From: Calditrichia bacterium
Lineage (GTDB): Bacteria > Calditrichota > Calditrichia > RBG-13-44-9 > J075
Assembly (NCBI GenBank): GCA_028284905.1
Contig: JANQQU010000084.1
Location: 1-64,000 of the forward strand
Reading direction: 5' to 3'
DNA length: 64,000 nt
The notes beneath the pieces were generated by a model. The model did not search any database and had not been told where the DNA came from. It saw only the letters and a list, made by a program, of their open reading frames with translations. This document shows positions 18,343-56,070 of this stretch, piece after piece; positions within the stretch are counted from its first letter, which is position 1; each line of letters opens with the position of its first letter. The position numbers and the translations under genes are program-made.

Positions 18343-18389
18343 CCGCTCCATTCGACTTTCTTTTGGAAAGATGGATGGGGCGGTTTTTT
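18343..18389 (+). terminator. Rho-independent terminator after the Gfo/Idh gene
   Basis: CCGCTCCAT (18343-18351) pairs with ATGGGGCGG (18375-18383), with one G-U pair, and an inner CTTTC/GAAAG stem adds to it. TTTTTT follows at 18384-18389. This closes the first part of the exopolysaccharide locus. Confidence 0.8.
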
Positions 18390-18487
18390 ATCCATTCCTG
18401 CAAAACCGGGAACTCGTAACCTTTAATTGGTATTTGATGCTGTCGGTGCTATATTACTCGCATTTCTCATATGGAGAAGTACGCAAG

Positions 18488-20179
18488 ATGCATTATGCCG
18501 GAAATAAGAAAATGAAGCGAATGAATTTACAACGTTCTCCCAGAATCCTCCACCTGTTAATACCCACCCTGCTATTGATTTCCAGCTTTGTAGCCGGTCA
18601 GGTCGTTTATGAGCCTTTGCATCGCGATGTTTATGACTATTTATCCCGCCTCAGCCAAAAAGGTGTTATCGAATACAACGATATTATCAAGCCGTTGTCC
18701 CGGCAGTATATCGCTGGAAAATTAACAGAAATTTCCGGGCAGGTTGATCAATTAAATACGCTGGAAAAACAGGAACTGGCTTTTTTTCAGCAAGAATTTT
18801 ATCATGAGCTTAATCCGGTGAATCCTTCCGAAGAAAGCCGTTATAGCTTCCTGGGAAAAGATGCCGCGGAGCGCTATCGCCTTTTTTCCTATCGCAGTGA
18901 ATTATTGGATTTGAACCTGAGCCCGATCTACGGTCTGGTAAACGGCCGCAACGATGGTGAGAGTGAAAGCGCCCGCTGGAATGGTGCATATCTTTACGGA
19001 CGCCTGGGAGAAAATATTGGCTTCAGCTTCGATTTCCGCGATAATCTCCAAAAAGGAAAAAACCTGGATATTGATAAAGCCTTTTCCCCGGAAACCGGCG
19101 TCGATGCAGAATTCTTTCCGGAGCGGGATGCCATCGAGTTCAGTGAGGTCCATACTACACTCGCTTATAACTGGACCTGGGGAAGTATCGCCTGGGGGAA
19201 GGATTTTCTTAATTGGGGACAGGCAGAAAGCGGGCAGATTGTACTTTCTTCCAAAGCGCCATCTTTTCCTTTTATCCGATTGGATTTACAGCCGGCAAAG
19301 TGGCTGCACTTCAATTATTTTCACGGTTGGTTAATCTCGAATGTTGTCGACTCCAGCCAGGTGTTTCCCAGCCTGATCGCGGGCAATAACAGTTTTAAAA
19401 ACCGGGAAAAATATTTAGCCTCGCATACGGTAACGCTGACACCAAAGCGGGGGTTGGATATCTCCCTGGGCGAATCGATCGTTTATAGCGATCAATTAGA
19501 AATCGCCTATCTGATGCCGTTAATGTTCTTCCGCCTGGCCGATCATTATCTCTCCAGCAGGCAAAATAGTGCCGGCAGCAATGCCCAGCTTTTTGCTGCA
19601 CTCAGTTCCCGGAATCATATTCCCAATACGCATCTGCATTTTACACTTTTTATTGATGATCTCTCGATTGCGAAAATCTTTGACGACGAGAACCATATTA
19701 ATCATGTCGCAGCGACATTCGGCGCTTCAGTAACAGATTTGCTTATCCCGAACCTCACGGTTTCAGGAGAATACACCCGCATTAATCCATTCGTTTACAA
19801 GCACTTTATTCCCACCGAATTATATACCAGCTCCAGCTATGGGATGGGCCATTGGATGGGCCATAATAGTGATTTACTGTACGGAAAATTGAACTACCGG
19901 ATTCGCCGCGGATTGCAAGTAAGCGCCTGGGGACAAAAAGTACGTAAAGGGGGAGAGGGAGAAGTGGTCGATCAATATCGATGGCCTCATAAACCATTTT
20001 TGTTCGGACTGAATGACCGGTTTAACGAATGGGGCGGCGAAGTTTCGTATGAGTTGACTCATGAACTCTTCCTCGGGGCAGAATTTCGGCGCCAAACGAT
20101 TAACCGGGAACAAGCCGAAGGACCCGCGCTGGAAACCAACAACAACCGGTTTTTCTTCTCTCTTTATTATGGGCGATAG
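18488..20179 (+). CDS. Wzi-like capsule assembly outer-membrane protein
   Basis: A 563-residue exported protein. After a basic start, a hydrophobic segment ending FVAGQ acts as signal peptide. A short helical part (about residues 40-110) precedes a long region of alternating beta strands that ends in FFFSLYYGR, as expected of an outer-membrane barrel. The WGKDFLNWGQ and YLMPLMFFR segments suggest the capsule-assembly Wzi family, which holds polysaccharide at the surface. The ATG at 18488 is chosen, with GGAG 11 bases upstream. An open frame back to 18371 begins inside the preceding terminator and is rejected. Confidence 0.68.
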   Translation: MHYAGNKKMKRMNLQRSPRILHLLIPTLLLISSFVAGQVVYEPLHRDVYDYLSRLSQKGVIEYNDIIKPLSRQYIAGKLTEISGQVDQLNTLEKQELAFFQQEFYHELNPVNPSEESRYSFLGKDAAERYRLFSYRSELLDLNLSPIYGLVNGRNDGESESARWNGAYLYGRLGENIGFSFDFRDNLQKGKNLDIDKAFSPETGVDAEFFPERDAIEFSEVHTTLAYNWTWGSIAWGKDFLNWGQAESGQIVLSSKAPSFPFIRLDLQPAKWLHFNYFHGWLISNVVDSSQVFPSLIAGNNSFKNREKYLASHTVTLTPKRGLDISLGESIVYSDQLEIAYLMPLMFFRLADHYLSSRQNSAGSNAQLFAALSSRNHIPNTHLHFTLFIDDLSIAKIFDDENHINHVAATFGASVTDLLIPNLTVSGEYTRINPFVYKHFIPTELYTSSSYGMGHWMGHNSDLLYGKLNYRIRRGLQVSAWGQKVRKGGEGEVVDQYRWPHKPFLFGLNDRFNEWGGEVSYELTHELFLGAEFRRQTINREQAEGPALETNNNRFFFSLYYGR

Positions 20180-20309: not shown

Positions 20310-22820
20310 ATGAAATTATTTAGTGTGTTGATAATATCTTTAGCGATTTCCCTGCTGGCGGTAAAGCTTACCCGCCAATGGGCGATTCGTTTGCAGATCG
20401 GCGCACTGCCCACCGCTCGTAAAATTCATGAATCATTTATTCCGGTCCTGGGGGGCATTGGTATTTTTTGTGGCCTGGCTGGGGGAATGTTAGCCGCAGA
20501 ATTGCTCGGTGTTCTGCCTGCGAATGCCTGGGGAAAACATCTCCATTTCTGGGTTGGATTGCTGCTGATTACTGCTGTCGGATTAATCGATGATATTCGC
20601 GGTATTCATCACCTGCAGAAATTCGCCGGAGAATTAATCGCGGCAATCCTCGCTGTTGCTGGCGGATGCATCATCGAAGCTTTTTTTAGTCCTACCGGTA
20701 CTGCCCTTAATCTTGGTTGGTTTAGTTATCCATTTACAGTGTTGTGGATTATGTTTATCATCAATGCGGTGAATCTGCTTGATGGCCTGGATGGTCTTGC
20801 CAGCGGCATCAGCCTGATTACAGCCTGCGGATTTTTGGTTATTGCCGCACTGGGCGGCCTTTCCTATTGGGTTGTTTTACCCATCGCCCTGATAGGTGGT
20901 CTACTGGGTTTTCTTCGCTATAATTATCGCCCGGCGTCAATTTTTATGGGAGATGTCGGCAGCTTGATGCTCGGTTATATTCTCGCCTGCCTGTCCATCG
21001 AAGTTTTAAAAGTTGCCGGTAGTCATCGGGTTTATTTTCTGGCTTCGCTGGTGATGTTAGGAATGCCGGTAACCGATACCCTGATTTCTTTCTTCCGTCG
21101 AATGGGACGGGGAGACCATCCCTTTAAACCGGATCGCGAGCACATTCATCATCGCCTTTTAAAACTGGGATTATCTCATCTGGATTCTGTCTGGATGATG
21201 TATTATTTCACGGCCCTTTTTGTTGCCCTGGCCATCCTGATGGTTACATACCAGGAATTTTTTGGCATTCTTCTTTTTGTTGTCGCCCTTTCTTTCTCAT
21301 TGTTTTGGGCCTGGCGACTGGGTTATTTGGAAACCCGCAAGGTGGTTAGCTTCGGCGTTAACGAATTGGAAACCCGGGCAGCAATTCGTCCGCAAATCCA
21401 TGCCGATTCGGTTTGGCACAAAATTGCGATTCTTTGTGGGGATATAATCTCCATAAATTTTGCAATGTATCTTACCTGGTGGTTTAAATTTCAATCTGGG
21501 ATGATTAATCCGCTCACCATAAAATCGCTGCAGGATTATTTTACCGCGCCGGTCTGGCTGGTTTTTACCGGCGCCTGGCTAATTCTTTTTTGGCTGAATG
21601 GATTATATCGGATGACCTGGGACGTCTCCCGCTATGATAAAATTCTCCGGGTCAGTAAGATTATTTCATTCGGGATTTTCTTTATCCTCATCCTGATGAA
21701 CATTGACTTATTGATGAACAGCAATGCTATTGAAAGAACGATGTTCAATAGCAATCAAATATCTACCCTGGCGTTTTACTGGGTGATTATGTGTATCGCG
21801 GTGAATGCTGCCCGTATGCTGATTATTATCGTCGAGAAGAAATATCATCTCTTCGAATATTCTTTTAAAAACACCCTGGTAATTGGCACTACCCGCCAGG
21901 CGAAAAATATTATTCGGGATATCGAAAAAAATCCCCATATGCTCCATAAGATTGTTGGTGTGGTCGATCGGAAAGCCAAGTGCGAAACGTTTGAGAATTA
22001 TCCACTGCTGGGGGACTATAATGATTTACCAAAATTGATTTATGAGCATAAAATCGAAGAGATCATTATTGCGATCCGGGATACTGCCCGGGAAGATCTG
22101 CTCAATATTATCGGGGTCTGCGATCGTTTGCAGGTGGTCATAAAGACCTTGCCTTCTTTGCAGAGTATTTTTGCCGGTAAATCTCCCGAGCTCGCCGGTT
22201 ATTCCCTGGTGCGGGCCTTCCCGGAAAAAATGATGCTGTGGCAGTGGGGAATTAAGCGCTTGATTGATATCTCTTTTGCCGTAATTTGTTTGCTGCTTAC
22301 ATTGCCTTTCTGGCTGACACTGGCATTGATTGTTCGTTACAATTTCCGGGAAAGCATTATCGTTAAAACGCCAATTATGGGGAAAAATGGCCGGGTGTTC
22401 AATATGTACCTTTTTCGTCTGGATAAGAATACTGCCGAGACTCCGAACGCCTATCACGGCGAACTACCGCCGGGGAAACTGACGCCGTTGGGCAACTTTC
22501 TCTACAAAACGCATATTTACAAATTTCCACAGCTTTTTAACATTCTGCGTGGGGATATGAGTTTAGTTGGCCCCCGCCCGGAATCGTTGGAATGGTATCG
22601 TAAACATCAGAATCATTTCCGCTTTCTGCATCGGCGGGTAACGGTTCGCCCCGGCATAACCGGAATGGCACAATTCAAATATCGCTACGAAGAATCCCAG
22701 AAAAAATTGCAGGAACGAGTGCGGTCAGATGTCTTCTATGGAGAAAACATCACCCTTAGCCTGGACCTGCGGATAATTATCAGAAGCCTTTTTTTGCTAT
22801 TTAAAAACGCATCAGCATGA
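20310..22820 (+). CDS. WecA/TagO-type initiating transferase fused to a degenerate WbaP-like module
   Basis: An 836-residue inner-membrane fusion. Residues ~1-340 are a polytopic polyprenyl-phosphate HexNAc-1-phosphate transferase with all expected motifs: LIDDIRG, NLLDGLDGLASG, FMGDVGS and REHIHHRLL. A second part follows with about four membrane helices (~370-510), a Rossmann domain (NTLVIGTTRQAKNIIRDIE, ~530 on) and a bacterial sugar-transferase domain (KRLIDISFAV to the end) that keeps GDMSLVGPRPE. In that last domain the catalytic region reads FNMYLFRLDKNT (697-708), without the Asp-Glu dyad of KFRTMxxDE, and DELPQ is replaced by YKFPQ (737-741). The N-terminal domain therefore probably starts glycan synthesis. 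The ATG at 20310 is used; a TTG at 20286 is less likely. Confidence 0.82.
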   Translation: MKLFSVLIISLAISLLAVKLTRQWAIRLQIGALPTARKIHESFIPVLGGIGIFCGLAGGMLAAELLGVLPANAWGKHLHFWVGLLLITAVGLIDDIRGIHHLQKFAGELIAAILAVAGGCIIEAFFSPTGTALNLGWFSYPFTVLWIMFIINAVNLLDGLDGLASGISLITACGFLVIAALGGLSYWVVLPIALIGGLLGFLRYNYRPASIFMGDVGSLMLGYILACLSIEVLKVAGSHRVYFLASLVMLGMPVTDTLISFFRRMGRGDHPFKPDREHIHHRLLKLGLSHLDSVWMMYYFTALFVALAILMVTYQEFFGILLFVVALSFSLFWAWRLGYLETRKVVSFGVNELETRAAIRPQIHADSVWHKIAILCGDIISINFAMYLTWWFKFQSGMINPLTIKSLQDYFTAPVWLVFTGAWLILFWLNGLYRMTWDVSRYDKILRVSKIISFGIFFILILMNIDLLMNSNAIERTMFNSNQISTLAFYWVIMCIAVNAARMLIIIVEKKYHLFEYSFKNTLVIGTTRQAKNIIRDIEKNPHMLHKIVGVVDRKAKCETFENYPLLGDYNDLPKLIYEHKIEEIIIAIRDTAREDLLNIIGVCDRLQVVIKTLPSLQSIFAGKSPELAGYSLVRAFPEKMMLWQWGIKRLIDISFAVICLLLTLPFWLTLALIVRYNFRESIIVKTPIMGKNGRVFNMYLFRLDKNTAETPNAYHGELPPGKLTPLGNFLYKTHIYKFPQLFNILRGDMSLVGPRPESLEWYRKHQNHFRFLHRRVTVRPGITGMAQFKYRYEESQKKLQERVRSDVFYGENITLSLDLRIIIRSLFLLFKNASA

Positions 22821-24913
22821 AAAAAATACCGGACATATCAGTTGTCATCGTTAACTATAACGTCAAGGAATATCTTGACCAGGCGTTGCTCTCATTGCAG
22901 CGGGCGTTAAAAGATATTTCCCACGAAATCTTCGTTGTCGATAACGCCTCCGTGGATAATAGCGTGCCGCATATCCGCCAGCACTTTCCCGATGTAACAT
23001 TGATTGCCAGCGAAGAGAATCTTGGATTCGGAAAGGCAAATAACATCGCCCTGGAAAAAGTGCGCGGAGAGTTCGTGGTGTTGATTAATCCCGATACGGT
23101 TGTCCAGGAAGATACTTTCGAAAAACTGCTGACGTTTTTTCGGGAGACCCCGGACGCCGGTGCAGCGACCTGTAAAATCCTCAATCCGGACGGATCATTT
23201 GCAGTGGATTGCCGCCATAGCATTCCCACACCGATGATCGCCCTCTGGAAAGTGTTGGGACTCAGCAAGCTTTTCCCCCGCAGTAAAACCTTTGCACAAT
23301 ACAATCTTACCTATCTCGATACAGAGAAAACCTACACCGTTCCGGCGATCTCCGGATCGTTTATGATGATCAAAAAATCTGTGCTGGACGCCATCGGCCA
23401 CTTTGACGAACGTTTTTTCATGTATTGTGAAGATATCGATTTATGCCATCGCATTAATCTGGGTGGTTTTAAAATATTCTATGTGCCTACTACTCAAATT
23501 ATTCATTACAAGGGGGAAAGCACCAAGAAGAACAATCTGGATTATGTCATCACGTTTAATAAGGCGCTCTATCAGTTTTTCGAAAAGCATTACGCATCAA
23601 AGACCCTGTTTGTCTTTCGCTGGATTATCGTTCTGGGGATTGTGGCTCGTGGCGTGTTTATCTATCTACGGAATTTTTTGAATCAGCACTTTGCCCAAAT
23701 CCTCGATACGCTCATTTTAAACGTGGCAATTATTGTTGCTTTCATGATTCGCCTCTCTTTTAAGGACGGCTTTTCCTGGTATACTTTTTTTCATTCAGAC
23801 GGAATCATCAACCTGATATCAATTGGGATATTTTGGATAAATGCTTATTATCTTGAGGTTTATCCTCATCATCGCTTTTCTATTCAGGGAATCATAAAAG
23901 CAAATGTTCTCACTTTTTTATTGCTGGCAGCGCTAACCTTTTTTCTGAAGCAGTTTGCTTTTTCCCGAATGGTAGTTCTCATGGCAGCATTTTTCTCTCC
24001 GTTGTTGATGATGGGCTGGCGCAGCGTGCTGAAGCGCTATCACCGTGGCGATCATTCGGCCTGGGGGAAAGATCTCTTTACAAAGCCGACCCTGATTGTC
24101 GGTAACGACAGTAGTGTGGCCGCACTATTTGAAAAGATTCGCGATATGAAAGATATGAGCTACGAATTGCTTGGCGTTGTTACGATTGACGGTGATGAAA
24201 GTGCCTTCGATAATCGCCATATTCCAGTGTTGGGCAGCCTGGAACATCTGGGGGAATTGATTGGCATTCACAAAGTTCGACAAGTGATTTTTTCCTCAGA
24301 AACCCTCAGTTATGAGCAAATTCTGAAAACGATGAGCGATTTGGGAATGCCGGCACTGGAATACAAAATTGCCCCTTCGAATCTGGAAGTAATGATTGGT
24401 AAATCAACAATTGATCGCTTAACCGACTATCCGCTTCTCGATATTGAATATGCGATTGGAAAACCGTTTAATCGTTTTGTTAAGCGAGGATTTGATATCT
24501 TTCTGGGCATATTTCTTTTCATTATCTTACTGCCGGTAGCTGTCCCGCTTTATTTACTTAACTTTAAGAAGTTGCAAAAGTTAACCATTATTGGTAAAAA
24601 ACAGCAGAATTTCACCTTGAAGCAGTTGGGCAGCTTACGTCCCAAAAAGCTGTTGAATTTCTGGTTGTTCCTTCGTGAAATTATCCGCGGAAATGTCTCA
24701 TTTGTCGGTGCGCCTTTGCTGGAAAGTAGTAATCCTTCTCAAAGCGAGACCGATTATTGGTATCAGCCGGGCATAACCGGACTGGTGCAAATTAACCGAA
24801 AAAAAATTATTGCGCCGAACGATATGGAAAAATACCACATCTTTTATCTGAAGAACCAATCACTGATGCTCGATCTGGAAATACTTATAAAATCTTTCTT
24901 TAACCTGCTTTAA
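22817..24913 (+). CDS. GT2 glycosyltransferase fused to a degenerate WbaP-like membrane module
   Basis: A 698-residue protein. Residues ~1-260 form a GT2 glycosyltransferase: VVIVNYN, NPDTVV (DxD-like) and FFMYCEDIDLCHR, resembling rhamnosyltransferases. After it come about four to five membrane helices (~265-400), a Rossmann domain (PTLIVGNDSSVAALF, ~425 on), then a reduced sugar-transferase-like tail. KRGFDIFLGIF, GNVSFVGAPLL and PGITGLVQI survive, but the KFRTM-DE segment and DELPQ are missing. It overlaps the preceding gene by ATGA and has the same tail architecture, so the two proteins probably work as a pair. It likely adds the second or a later sugar to the lipid carrier. Confidence 0.8.
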   Translation: MKKIPDISVVIVNYNVKEYLDQALLSLQRALKDISHEIFVVDNASVDNSVPHIRQHFPDVTLIASEENLGFGKANNIALEKVRGEFVVLINPDTVVQEDTFEKLLTFFRETPDAGAATCKILNPDGSFAVDCRHSIPTPMIALWKVLGLSKLFPRSKTFAQYNLTYLDTEKTYTVPAISGSFMMIKKSVLDAIGHFDERFFMYCEDIDLCHRINLGGFKIFYVPTTQIIHYKGESTKKNNLDYVITFNKALYQFFEKHYASKTLFVFRWIIVLGIVARGVFIYLRNFLNQHFAQILDTLILNVAIIVAFMIRLSFKDGFSWYTFFHSDGIINLISIGIFWINAYYLEVYPHHRFSIQGIIKANVLTFLLLAALTFFLKQFAFSRMVVLMAAFFSPLLMMGWRSVLKRYHRGDHSAWGKDLFTKPTLIVGNDSSVAALFEKIRDMKDMSYELLGVVTIDGDESAFDNRHIPVLGSLEHLGELIGIHKVRQVIFSSETLSYEQILKTMSDLGMPALEYKIAPSNLEVMIGKSTIDRLTDYPLLDIEYAIGKPFNRFVKRGFDIFLGIFLFIILLPVAVPLYLLNFKKLQKLTIIGKKQQNFTLKQLGSLRPKKLLNFWLFLREIIRGNVSFVGAPLLESSNPSQSETDYWYQPGITGLVQINRKKIIAPNDMEKYHIFYLKNQSLMLDLEILIKSFFNLL

Positions 24914-54960: not shown

Positions 54961-56070
54961 ATGCTGGCAGATCTACTGTTTCAATATAGCGATATCTTCA
55001 GTCCGCTGAACCTGTTCCGTTACATTACGGTGCGGGCGGCTTTTGCAGCAATTACTGCGTTGCTGTTTAGCTTTGTAATCGGCCCAAGGATTATCGATTA
55101 TTTGCGCAAAAATCAGTTAGGCGAGGAGATTCGCACCGATGGTCCCGATACGCATCAGGTGAAAAAAGGAACCCCGACGATGGGCGGTATTATTGTTCTT
55201 GGCGCGACTTTTGTTTCACTTTTGCTCTGGGCTAAGCTCTCGAACTTCTACATCCAGCTGTTGTTTTTAGCAACCTTCTGGATGGGCGTTGTCGGTTTTA
55301 TCGATGATTATTTGAAAGTCGTTAAAAAAATGAAAAAGGGATTAATCGCCCGTTATAAGCTGATCGGGCAGATCACCCTGGGATTAATAATCGGATCGCT
55401 GCTTTACTTTAATCCGGAATTAAATGCCCGGGATATTCATGATAGTACTACAATCCCTTTCTTTAAAAACTGGATGTTCTCTTTTGAGATACTCTATATC
55501 CCAATGGTGGTATTTGTGATAACCGGATTTTCCAATGCTGTAAATCTAACTGACGGCCTGGATGGATTGGCCAGCGGTCTGGTCGCTATTTCCATGCTGG
55601 CTATTGCCGGGATTAGCTATGTGACCGGTCACGTAAACTTCAGTACCTATCTCAATATCGTTTACTTGCCGGGGAGTGGGGAATTAGCGGTGTATTGCCT
55701 GGGCATCTTTGGCGCAGCAATGGGATTCCTCTGGTTTAACACCCATCCGGCGGAAGTTTTTATGGGAGACACCGGCTCCCTGGCCCTGGGCAGCACGCTG
55801 GGGGCAGCAGCTGTTTTGATTAAGAAAGAATTTTTGCTGGTGCTGATTGGTGGCGTATTCGTCGCGGAAACGATCAGCGTAATTATCCAAACCAGCTACT
55901 TTAAATATACCCGGAAAAAATATGGTGAAGGAAAACGGGTGTTTTTGATGACCCCAATCCATCATCATTTCGAATTAAAAGGATGGAGAGAATCGAAAGT
56001 TGTTGTGCGCTTCTGGATTATCGGCGCGTTACTGGCCTTGTTCAGTTTAGCAACATTTAAGATTCGCTAA
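54961..56070 (+). CDS. mraY: Phospho-MurNAc-pentapeptide transferase MraY
   Basis: A 369-residue integral membrane enzyme making lipid I from UDP-MurNAc-pentapeptide and undecaprenyl phosphate. There are about ten membrane helices. Family motifs are KKGTPTMGG near residue 66, FIDDYLKV (Asp pair), NLTDGLDGLASG, FMGDTGSLALG and MTPIHHHFELKGW. It is related to the N-terminal domain of the fusion protein at 20310 but is clearly the MraY branch because of the HHHFE motif and gene order. Confidence 0.96.
   Translation: MLADLLFQYSDIFSPLNLFRYITVRAAFAAITALLFSFVIGPRIIDYLRKNQLGEEIRTDGPDTHQVKKGTPTMGGIIVLGATFVSLLLWAKLSNFYIQLLFLATFWMGVVGFIDDYLKVVKKMKKGLIARYKLIGQITLGLIIGSLLYFNPELNARDIHDSTTIPFFKNWMFSFEILYIPMVVFVITGFSNAVNLTDGLDGLASGLVAISMLAIAGISYVTGHVNFSTYLNIVYLPGSGELAVYCLGIFGAAMGFLWFNTHPAEVFMGDTGSLALGSTLGAAAVLIKKEFLLVLIGGVFVAETISVIIQTSYFKYTRKKYGEGKRVFLMTPIHHHFELKGWRESKVVVRFWIIGALLALFSLATFKIR

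Follow-up and report, generated by a model that had tools for sequence, protein, structure and literature searches.

Two-way degeneration in a WecA-WbaP fusion family, and the pairing of its Calditrichota members with a tailed GT2 glycosyltransferase

We describe a protein family in which a WecA-type polyPGT and a WbaP-type large monoPGT (Lg-PGT) are fused in one chain, and in which either half appears to have lost its active site while the rest of the domain was kept. Initiating PGTs belong to two unrelated superfamilies, which are normally alternatives for the same job. The member studied here, gene 1, lies in a 64,000-nucleotide stretch of a Calditrichota contig (JANQQU010000084.1; the window) and has an intact WecA half and a seemingly dead monoPGT half. 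It is followed directly by gene 2, a GT2 glycosyltransferase with a reduced and likewise apparently dead WbaP-like tail. An earlier note on this DNA had proposed that the two tails pair and hold the first two enzymes of the pathway together on the lipid carrier. We consider the dual-PGT fusion family with its two-way degeneration to be the stronger finding. A fused family in which either PGT dies and its shell stays would allow the function of the non-catalytic regions of WbaP-type enzymes to be tested in nature's own variants.

The source genome is 8.55 Mb in size, and the features of the locus are collected in Table 1. The two reading frames share an ATGA, which confirms the overlap of adjacent genes that had been noticed earlier. 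Homologues of the Wzi-like gene stand upstream of the pair in 14 of the 21 Calditrichota loci and are its commonest upstream neighbour; Wza-like, Wzz-like, GT1, sulfotransferase, aminotransferase and Gfo/Idh genes complete the locus within the window.

Table 1. Features of the gene 1-gene 2 locus (window coordinates; numbers after domain names are E-values)
Feature	Position	Strand	Description or basis
Wzi-like capsule assembly gene	18371..20179	+	PF14052, 7.9e-8; 5' of the gene 1-gene 2 pair
Gene 1	20310..22820	+	ATG start, 836 aa; WecA-type polyPGT and apparently dead WbaP-like large monoPGT tail
PolyPGT (WecA-like) domain, gene 1	20310..21329	+	PF00953 (Glycos_transf_4), 3.2e-40; motifs intact
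Four-helix membrane bundle, gene 1 WbaP-like tail	21402..21845	+	AlphaFold2 model, alignment to WbaP
Rossmann-like DUF, gene 1	21846..22151	+	Pfam (CoA_binding_3, 4.7e-12), AlphaFold2 model, alignment to WbaP
Linker with segment matching the WbaP domain-swap hairpin, gene 1	22152..22235	+	8t53 alignment; low pLDDT at 624-630
Pseudo-monoPGT domain, gene 1	22236..22805	+	PF02397 (Bac_transf), 4.9e-43
Y737-K738 replacing the catalytic Asp-Glu, gene 1	22518-22523	+	YK in 29/30 homologues
ATGA overlap, gene 1 stop and gene 2 start	22817..22820	+	four bases common to both ORFs
Gene 2	22817..24913	+	698 aa; GT2 and reduced, apparently dead WbaP-like tail
GT2 domain, gene 2	22817..23536	+	PF00535 (Glycos_transf_2), 1.1e-23; NPDT (91-94) and CED (204-206) invariant
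Four-helix bundle and Rossmann DUF, gene 2 tail	23687..24370	+	Pfam (CoA_binding_3, 3.1e-12), model, alignment to WbaP
K529-E544, at the place of the WbaP swap hairpin (Asn251-Gln268), gene 2	24401..24448	+	alignment
Re-entrant helix and monoPGT remnant, gene 2	24473..24901	+	PF02397 (Bac_transf), 2.1e-12, profile positions 96-177 of 179 only; alignment

Gene 1 has the order WecA-type polyPGT, four TM helices, Rossmann DUF and monoPGT domain, and gene 2 the order GT2, four-helix bundle, Rossmann DUF and truncated monoPGT domain. The earlier reading of both proteins as an active domain followed by helices, a Rossmann domain and a degenerate sugar-transferase domain is borne out by Pfam and by alignment to WbaP. 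In the front half of gene 1 we observed all the motifs of a WecA-type enzyme (DD, NxxNxxDGxDGLA, FMGD and HIHHR), and their residues (D94-D95, N155/D158/D161, D215 and H278/H280/H281) are invariant or nearly so among 29 homologues. The fold and every catalytic motif are those of WecA and MraY (PF00953); gene 1 differs from them in its WbaP-like tail of roughly 470 residues and in its score against the curated WecA model (130 bits, under the cut-off of 326 bits). A search of the genome for Glycos_transf_4 members returned just gene 1 and a second protein, at 55258-55818 of the window, which from its place there is presumably MraY; no further WecA-type enzyme was present. This sole occurrence and the conserved motifs support the assignment of gene 1 as the initiating transferase. 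The AlphaFold2 model of gene 1 (pLDDT 80.9) matched MraY structures (TM up to 0.81) and PglC (8e37, TM 0.77), both by target length, as well as WbaP (8t53, E 1.8e-11).

The tail of gene 1 has the bundle, the PF13727 DUF and the PF02397 domain of a WbaP-type large monoPGT in that order, and lacks the catalytic Asp-Glu dyad. YKFPQ stands where DELPQ is expected, KFRSM is lost as well, and the dyad position is Tyr-Lys in all homologues but one, which has Asn-Arg. Six monoPGT proteins are encoded elsewhere in the same genome, and Asp-Glu was present in all of those whose active site was read (at least four). The mechanism of monoPGTs proceeds through a covalent Asp-phosphosugar intermediate. The GPRP and PGxTG motifs and other conserved positions remain in the gene 1 domain, as might be expected if the tail were still active through other residues; however, neither the nucleophilic Asp nor the Glu beside it is left, KFRSM is gone too, and we reject residual monoPGT activity on these motifs as extremely improbable.

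The dead domain of gene 1 is not decaying, since its conservation matches that of the live WecA domain and its YK is fixed: mean column identity is 0.56 at the lost dyad and 0.56 in the C-terminal part, compared to 0.50 in the WecA domain. The segment corresponding to the WbaP hairpin, at 0.50 against 0.56 for the C-terminus of the tail, is not the best conserved part. If the dead domains had lost their function recently and were now disappearing, this would agree with the stepwise erosion of the gene 2 tail in Bacteroidota described below. In gene 1, however, the loss predates the whole phylum and the domain is still intact and conserved in 30 homologues, with YK not drifting and the frame uninterrupted by a stop codon in 29 of the 30. 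We therefore regard the relic explanation as very unlikely.

The same fusion of WecA and large PGT was found in 17 genomes outside Calditrichota. In 14 of them (L184, L186, L187, L236-L240 and L242-L247; L241 is L184 again and was not counted separately) the monoPGT half has an intact dyad and KFRSM-type motif, and DD and HxHHRL are present in the WecA half. Each of these chains combines two unrelated initiating transferases, apparently both live. The mirror image of gene 1 was observed in L248, L249 and L250 (genomes G425, G417 and G404), where the monoPGT Asp-Glu is intact and the WecA half is without DD, DGxDG, FMGD and HIHHRL. In the tail tree the fusions form one clade (support 100/98) in which Calditrichota are monophyletic (100/100) and L248-L250 fall within the dual-active clade of their own phylum (100/100); the tree of the WecA halves also has a single fusion clade (97/85). 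On these trees, the gene 1 family appears to descend from one WecA-WbaP fusion. The simplest history would be a single fusion, dual-active at first, whose monoPGT half died on the Calditrichota stem and whose WecA half died in another lineage. This replaces the possibility that a WecA gene captured an adjacent live Lg-PGT (such as that in L086) within Calditrichota, as the fusion seems to be older and to have been dual-active. A separate clade, L265-L270, comprises proteins of 598-648 aa with WecA, membrane bundle and Rossmann DUF and without a monoPGT domain.

As either half may die and both are nevertheless kept, a structural function of the dead part is probable, with dimerisation by way of the hairpin known from WbaP as the likeliest, and the two-way degeneration suggests that either half is of structural use independently of catalysis. 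MonoPGT architectures were reportedly surveyed in the main by O'Toole et al. 2021 (cited in PMC10942596), which was outside our search; the open-access literature that was searched held no description of a poly/mono PGT fusion, and a prior description is possible. The Bi-PGTs, as summarised in PMC10942596, are similar in that a monoPGT domain is joined to another functional domain, whereas in the present proteins that other domain is a GT2 or a PGT from the second superfamily, and the monoPGT domain is apparently dead in Calditrichota.

Gene 2 was also read correctly as a GT2: its front half has a GT-A fold with intact NPD and ED motifs, and a Foldseek search with its AlphaFold2 model (pLDDT 76.7) returned matches dominated by GT2 proteins. 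It resembles the WbbL-type GT2 rhamnosyltransferases in following a WecA-type initiator and in a weak match to TIGR01556 (46 bits, below the cut-off of 200), and differs from them in being membrane-bound through a dead Lg-PGT tail. In this tail the bundle and the DUF are present and the monoPGT domain is truncated. The Pfam range and the alignment confirm the earlier observation that the catalytic stretch KFRSM ... DELPQ is deleted while GNVSFVGAPLL and PGITGLVQI are kept. The stretch holding K529-E544 is the best conserved of the tail, with a column identity of 0.64, while the Rossmann part reaches 0.41 and the loop 0.22.

We compared the two tails with each other and with WbaP. Aligned end to end, the tail profiles matched cryo-EM WbaP (8t53) with E-values of 2e-54 for gene 1 and 1.7e-32 for gene 2, and matched each other in hhalign with probability 100 and an E-value of 1.8e-51. 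As judged by these profiles, both likenesses are far beyond chance. WbaP and other Lg-PGTs (8t53, 9s7s, 9s8l) have the same succession of bundle, Rossmann DUF, hairpin and monoPGT domain; both window tails differ from them in the missing catalytic dyad and in the other enzyme fused in front, and gene 2 also in its truncated PGT. The identity of the two tails is about 21-23% (23% for the window pair). In a quick tree they fall into separate clades, and the gene 2 tails form a clade of their own (support 99) apart from the gene 1 tails and from the sampled live large PGTs. Therefore, the pair was not made by copying a tail within the operon, and duplication there was rejected. The earlier claim that both genes bear the same tail thus holds for the architecture, while the tails are not recent duplicates.

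WbaP forms a homodimer, for which hairpin crosslinks have been published, and its protomers swap the hairpin Asn251-Gln268 (PMC10942596); the hairpin is likewise treated as a dimer element in PMC12802240. The swap-hairpin segment aligns in both window tails. In the monomer models, low-confidence places lie at or just after this segment (624-630 in gene 1, 539-548 in gene 2), and the published monomer model of WbaP also has moderate confidence at the hairpin region (PMC10942596).

The pairing of the two genes was surveyed in 40 Calditrichota genomes. Of these, 35 carry gene 1 and 36 carry gene 2 (35 at E 1e-60, and a fragment in G001 on the contig of gene 1), and the pair is present in 35. The four genomes lacking both are each less than 90% complete, and in G010 gene 2 lies at a contig end and gene 1 was not found. 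Among the 23 genomes with at least 90% completeness and low contamination, gene 2 is present in all and gene 1 in all but G010. At every one of the 21 Calditrichota loci, gene 1 precedes gene 2 in the same orientation. Within the phylum, the co-occurrence search thus gave strict pairing, with the genes adjacent wherever the contig shows it. At one locus (L072) about 0.84 kb separates them. One genome, G034, has the pair in two copies (contigs C139 and C17), and the C17 copy, which is near that of G022, may be contamination. A Calditrichota pair, with 61% identity in the GT2 part, also occurs in L095 (JAGHBR010000427.1), a sequence titled Caldisericaceae; the genome is probably misnamed.

Outside the phylum, gene 2 homologues with a full tail were observed in several other groups (G360, G098, G085, G094, G230, G368 and G118), and here the claim that the two genes always occur together broke down. 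The fusion occurs without a gene 2 homologue in G236 and G367 (14 further fusion genomes were outside this check), and a gene 2 homologue occurs without a gene-1-type partner in G230 and G368. Such single occurrences are what the earlier note had named as speaking against its proposal, and an obligate pair is excluded in general. Gene-1-type large PGTs or fusions were present in 10 of 16 genomes with a gene 2 homologue compared to 19 of 329 without (Fisher 2e-8), a test that ignores shared ancestry, uses an approximate genome total and scored only the top candidates of each genome. In the Ignavibacteriaceae locus L086 a live gene-1-type large PGT is followed by a second GT, read by eye as of the polyprenol-phosphate type, and then by the gene 2 homologue, the PGT being two genes upstream.

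These data bear on whether the tails bind each other specifically, in an obligate gene 1-gene 2 hetero-oligomer in which the initiating enzyme would hand its Und-PP-sugar to the GT2. The fact that the genes are strictly adjacent and retained together in Calditrichota, the co-occurrence outside the phylum, the near-adjacency in L086 and the hairpin in both tails would all fit such an oligomer, as would the report of Corynebacterium WecA and WbbL in one complex through UbiA (PMC4213368). However, direct contact between WecA and WbbL was negative in the same study, each of our proteins occurs without the other, G094 has both on separate contigs, and shared operons and shared ancestry account for much of the co-occurrence. 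We consider this hand-over complex rather unlikely. A hairpin-swapped heterodimer is not favoured, as the tails are old and share so little identity. What stands of the proposed paired-tail unit is the strict pairing within the phylum and the hairpin in both tails, and the correlation outside the phylum, uncorrected for ancestry, leaves a partnership plausible; the unit is not general, and the tails come from two separate lineages.

Taken as a whole, the data are best explained, with somewhat better than even confidence, by dead tails that serve as dimerisation scaffolds on the first- and second-step enzymes. In a Wzx/Wzy-type surface polysaccharide locus, gene 1 would be the dedicated initiator, whose WecA half puts a sugar-1-phosphate on undecaprenyl phosphate, and the second sugar would be added by gene 2. 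In gene 1, the WbaP-like part would be the monoPGT half of the ancient dual-PGT fusion, which lost its Asp-Glu in the Calditrichota ancestor and has since served as a scaffold for dimerisation in the membrane, where it perhaps still senses nucleotides; the tail of gene 2 would be an older, separately derived dead version of the same fold. We infer that the tails most likely keep the enzymes dimeric at the membrane; these dimers would be homodimers or, within Calditrichota, partly mixed ones of gene 1 and gene 2. Such a mixed tail assembly is possible in this phylum, although the odds are against it. We hold as similarly doubtful the broader proposal of a lineage-wide unit, in which polyPGT and GT2 are joined by paired dead Lg-PGT tails, built on a fusion family that was resolved in two directions and always keeps the dead half as a scaffold. 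Several observations count against our preferred explanation: outside the phylum fusions and gene 2 proteins are also met singly, the hairpin segment is not the most conserved portion of the gene 1 tail, the two tails are old and of low identity, and Bacteroidota have nearly lost the gene 2 tail.

The tails could instead act within each protein, as membrane anchors or nucleotide (UMP) sensors, and form no scaffold between enzymes. The DUF of WbaP binds uridine nucleotides and UMP inhibits WbaP (PMC10942596), the Rossmann domain is retained in both tails, and the clade of 598-648 aa has it with WecA and the bundle in the absence of a PGT domain. This explanation, however, does not account for the GPRP/PGxTG part of the dead PGT being as conserved as the live WecA domain, and an anchor is unneeded on a WecA half that by itself spans the membrane several times; we give it only tentative credence.

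The retention of either dead half in the fusion family suggests that the dead parts hold the machinery of a surface-sugar pathway together, and with this pair it becomes possible to test, in a concrete case, whether the first two steps are physically coupled on a scarce lipid carrier. To our knowledge, such coupling on the lipid carrier is often assumed and rarely shown. The EpsZ-EpsW system of Myxococcus xanthus (PMC12802240) is comparable in that the activity of its Lg-PGT is proposed to depend on whether the enzyme is dimeric; its partner, unlike gene 2, is a response regulator and not a second-step glycosyltransferase.

In Bacteroidota the gene 2 tail is reduced stepwise, and Bacteroidaceae keep little beyond part of the Rossmann domain. 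As the tail is nearly gone, it is dispensable there; a large PGT was not found within the fetched flanks of these reduced forms. Six sequences from Bacteroidaceae/Bacteroidales (L119, L131-L133, L141 and L145) are GT2 proteins in which no more than a degenerate remnant of the tail is left at the C-terminus. Another GT2 with a dead large-PGT tail, at 4516-7521 of L203 (G212), forms a long branch among the live large PGTs, not with gene 2, and is perhaps a GT2-tail fusion of independent origin.
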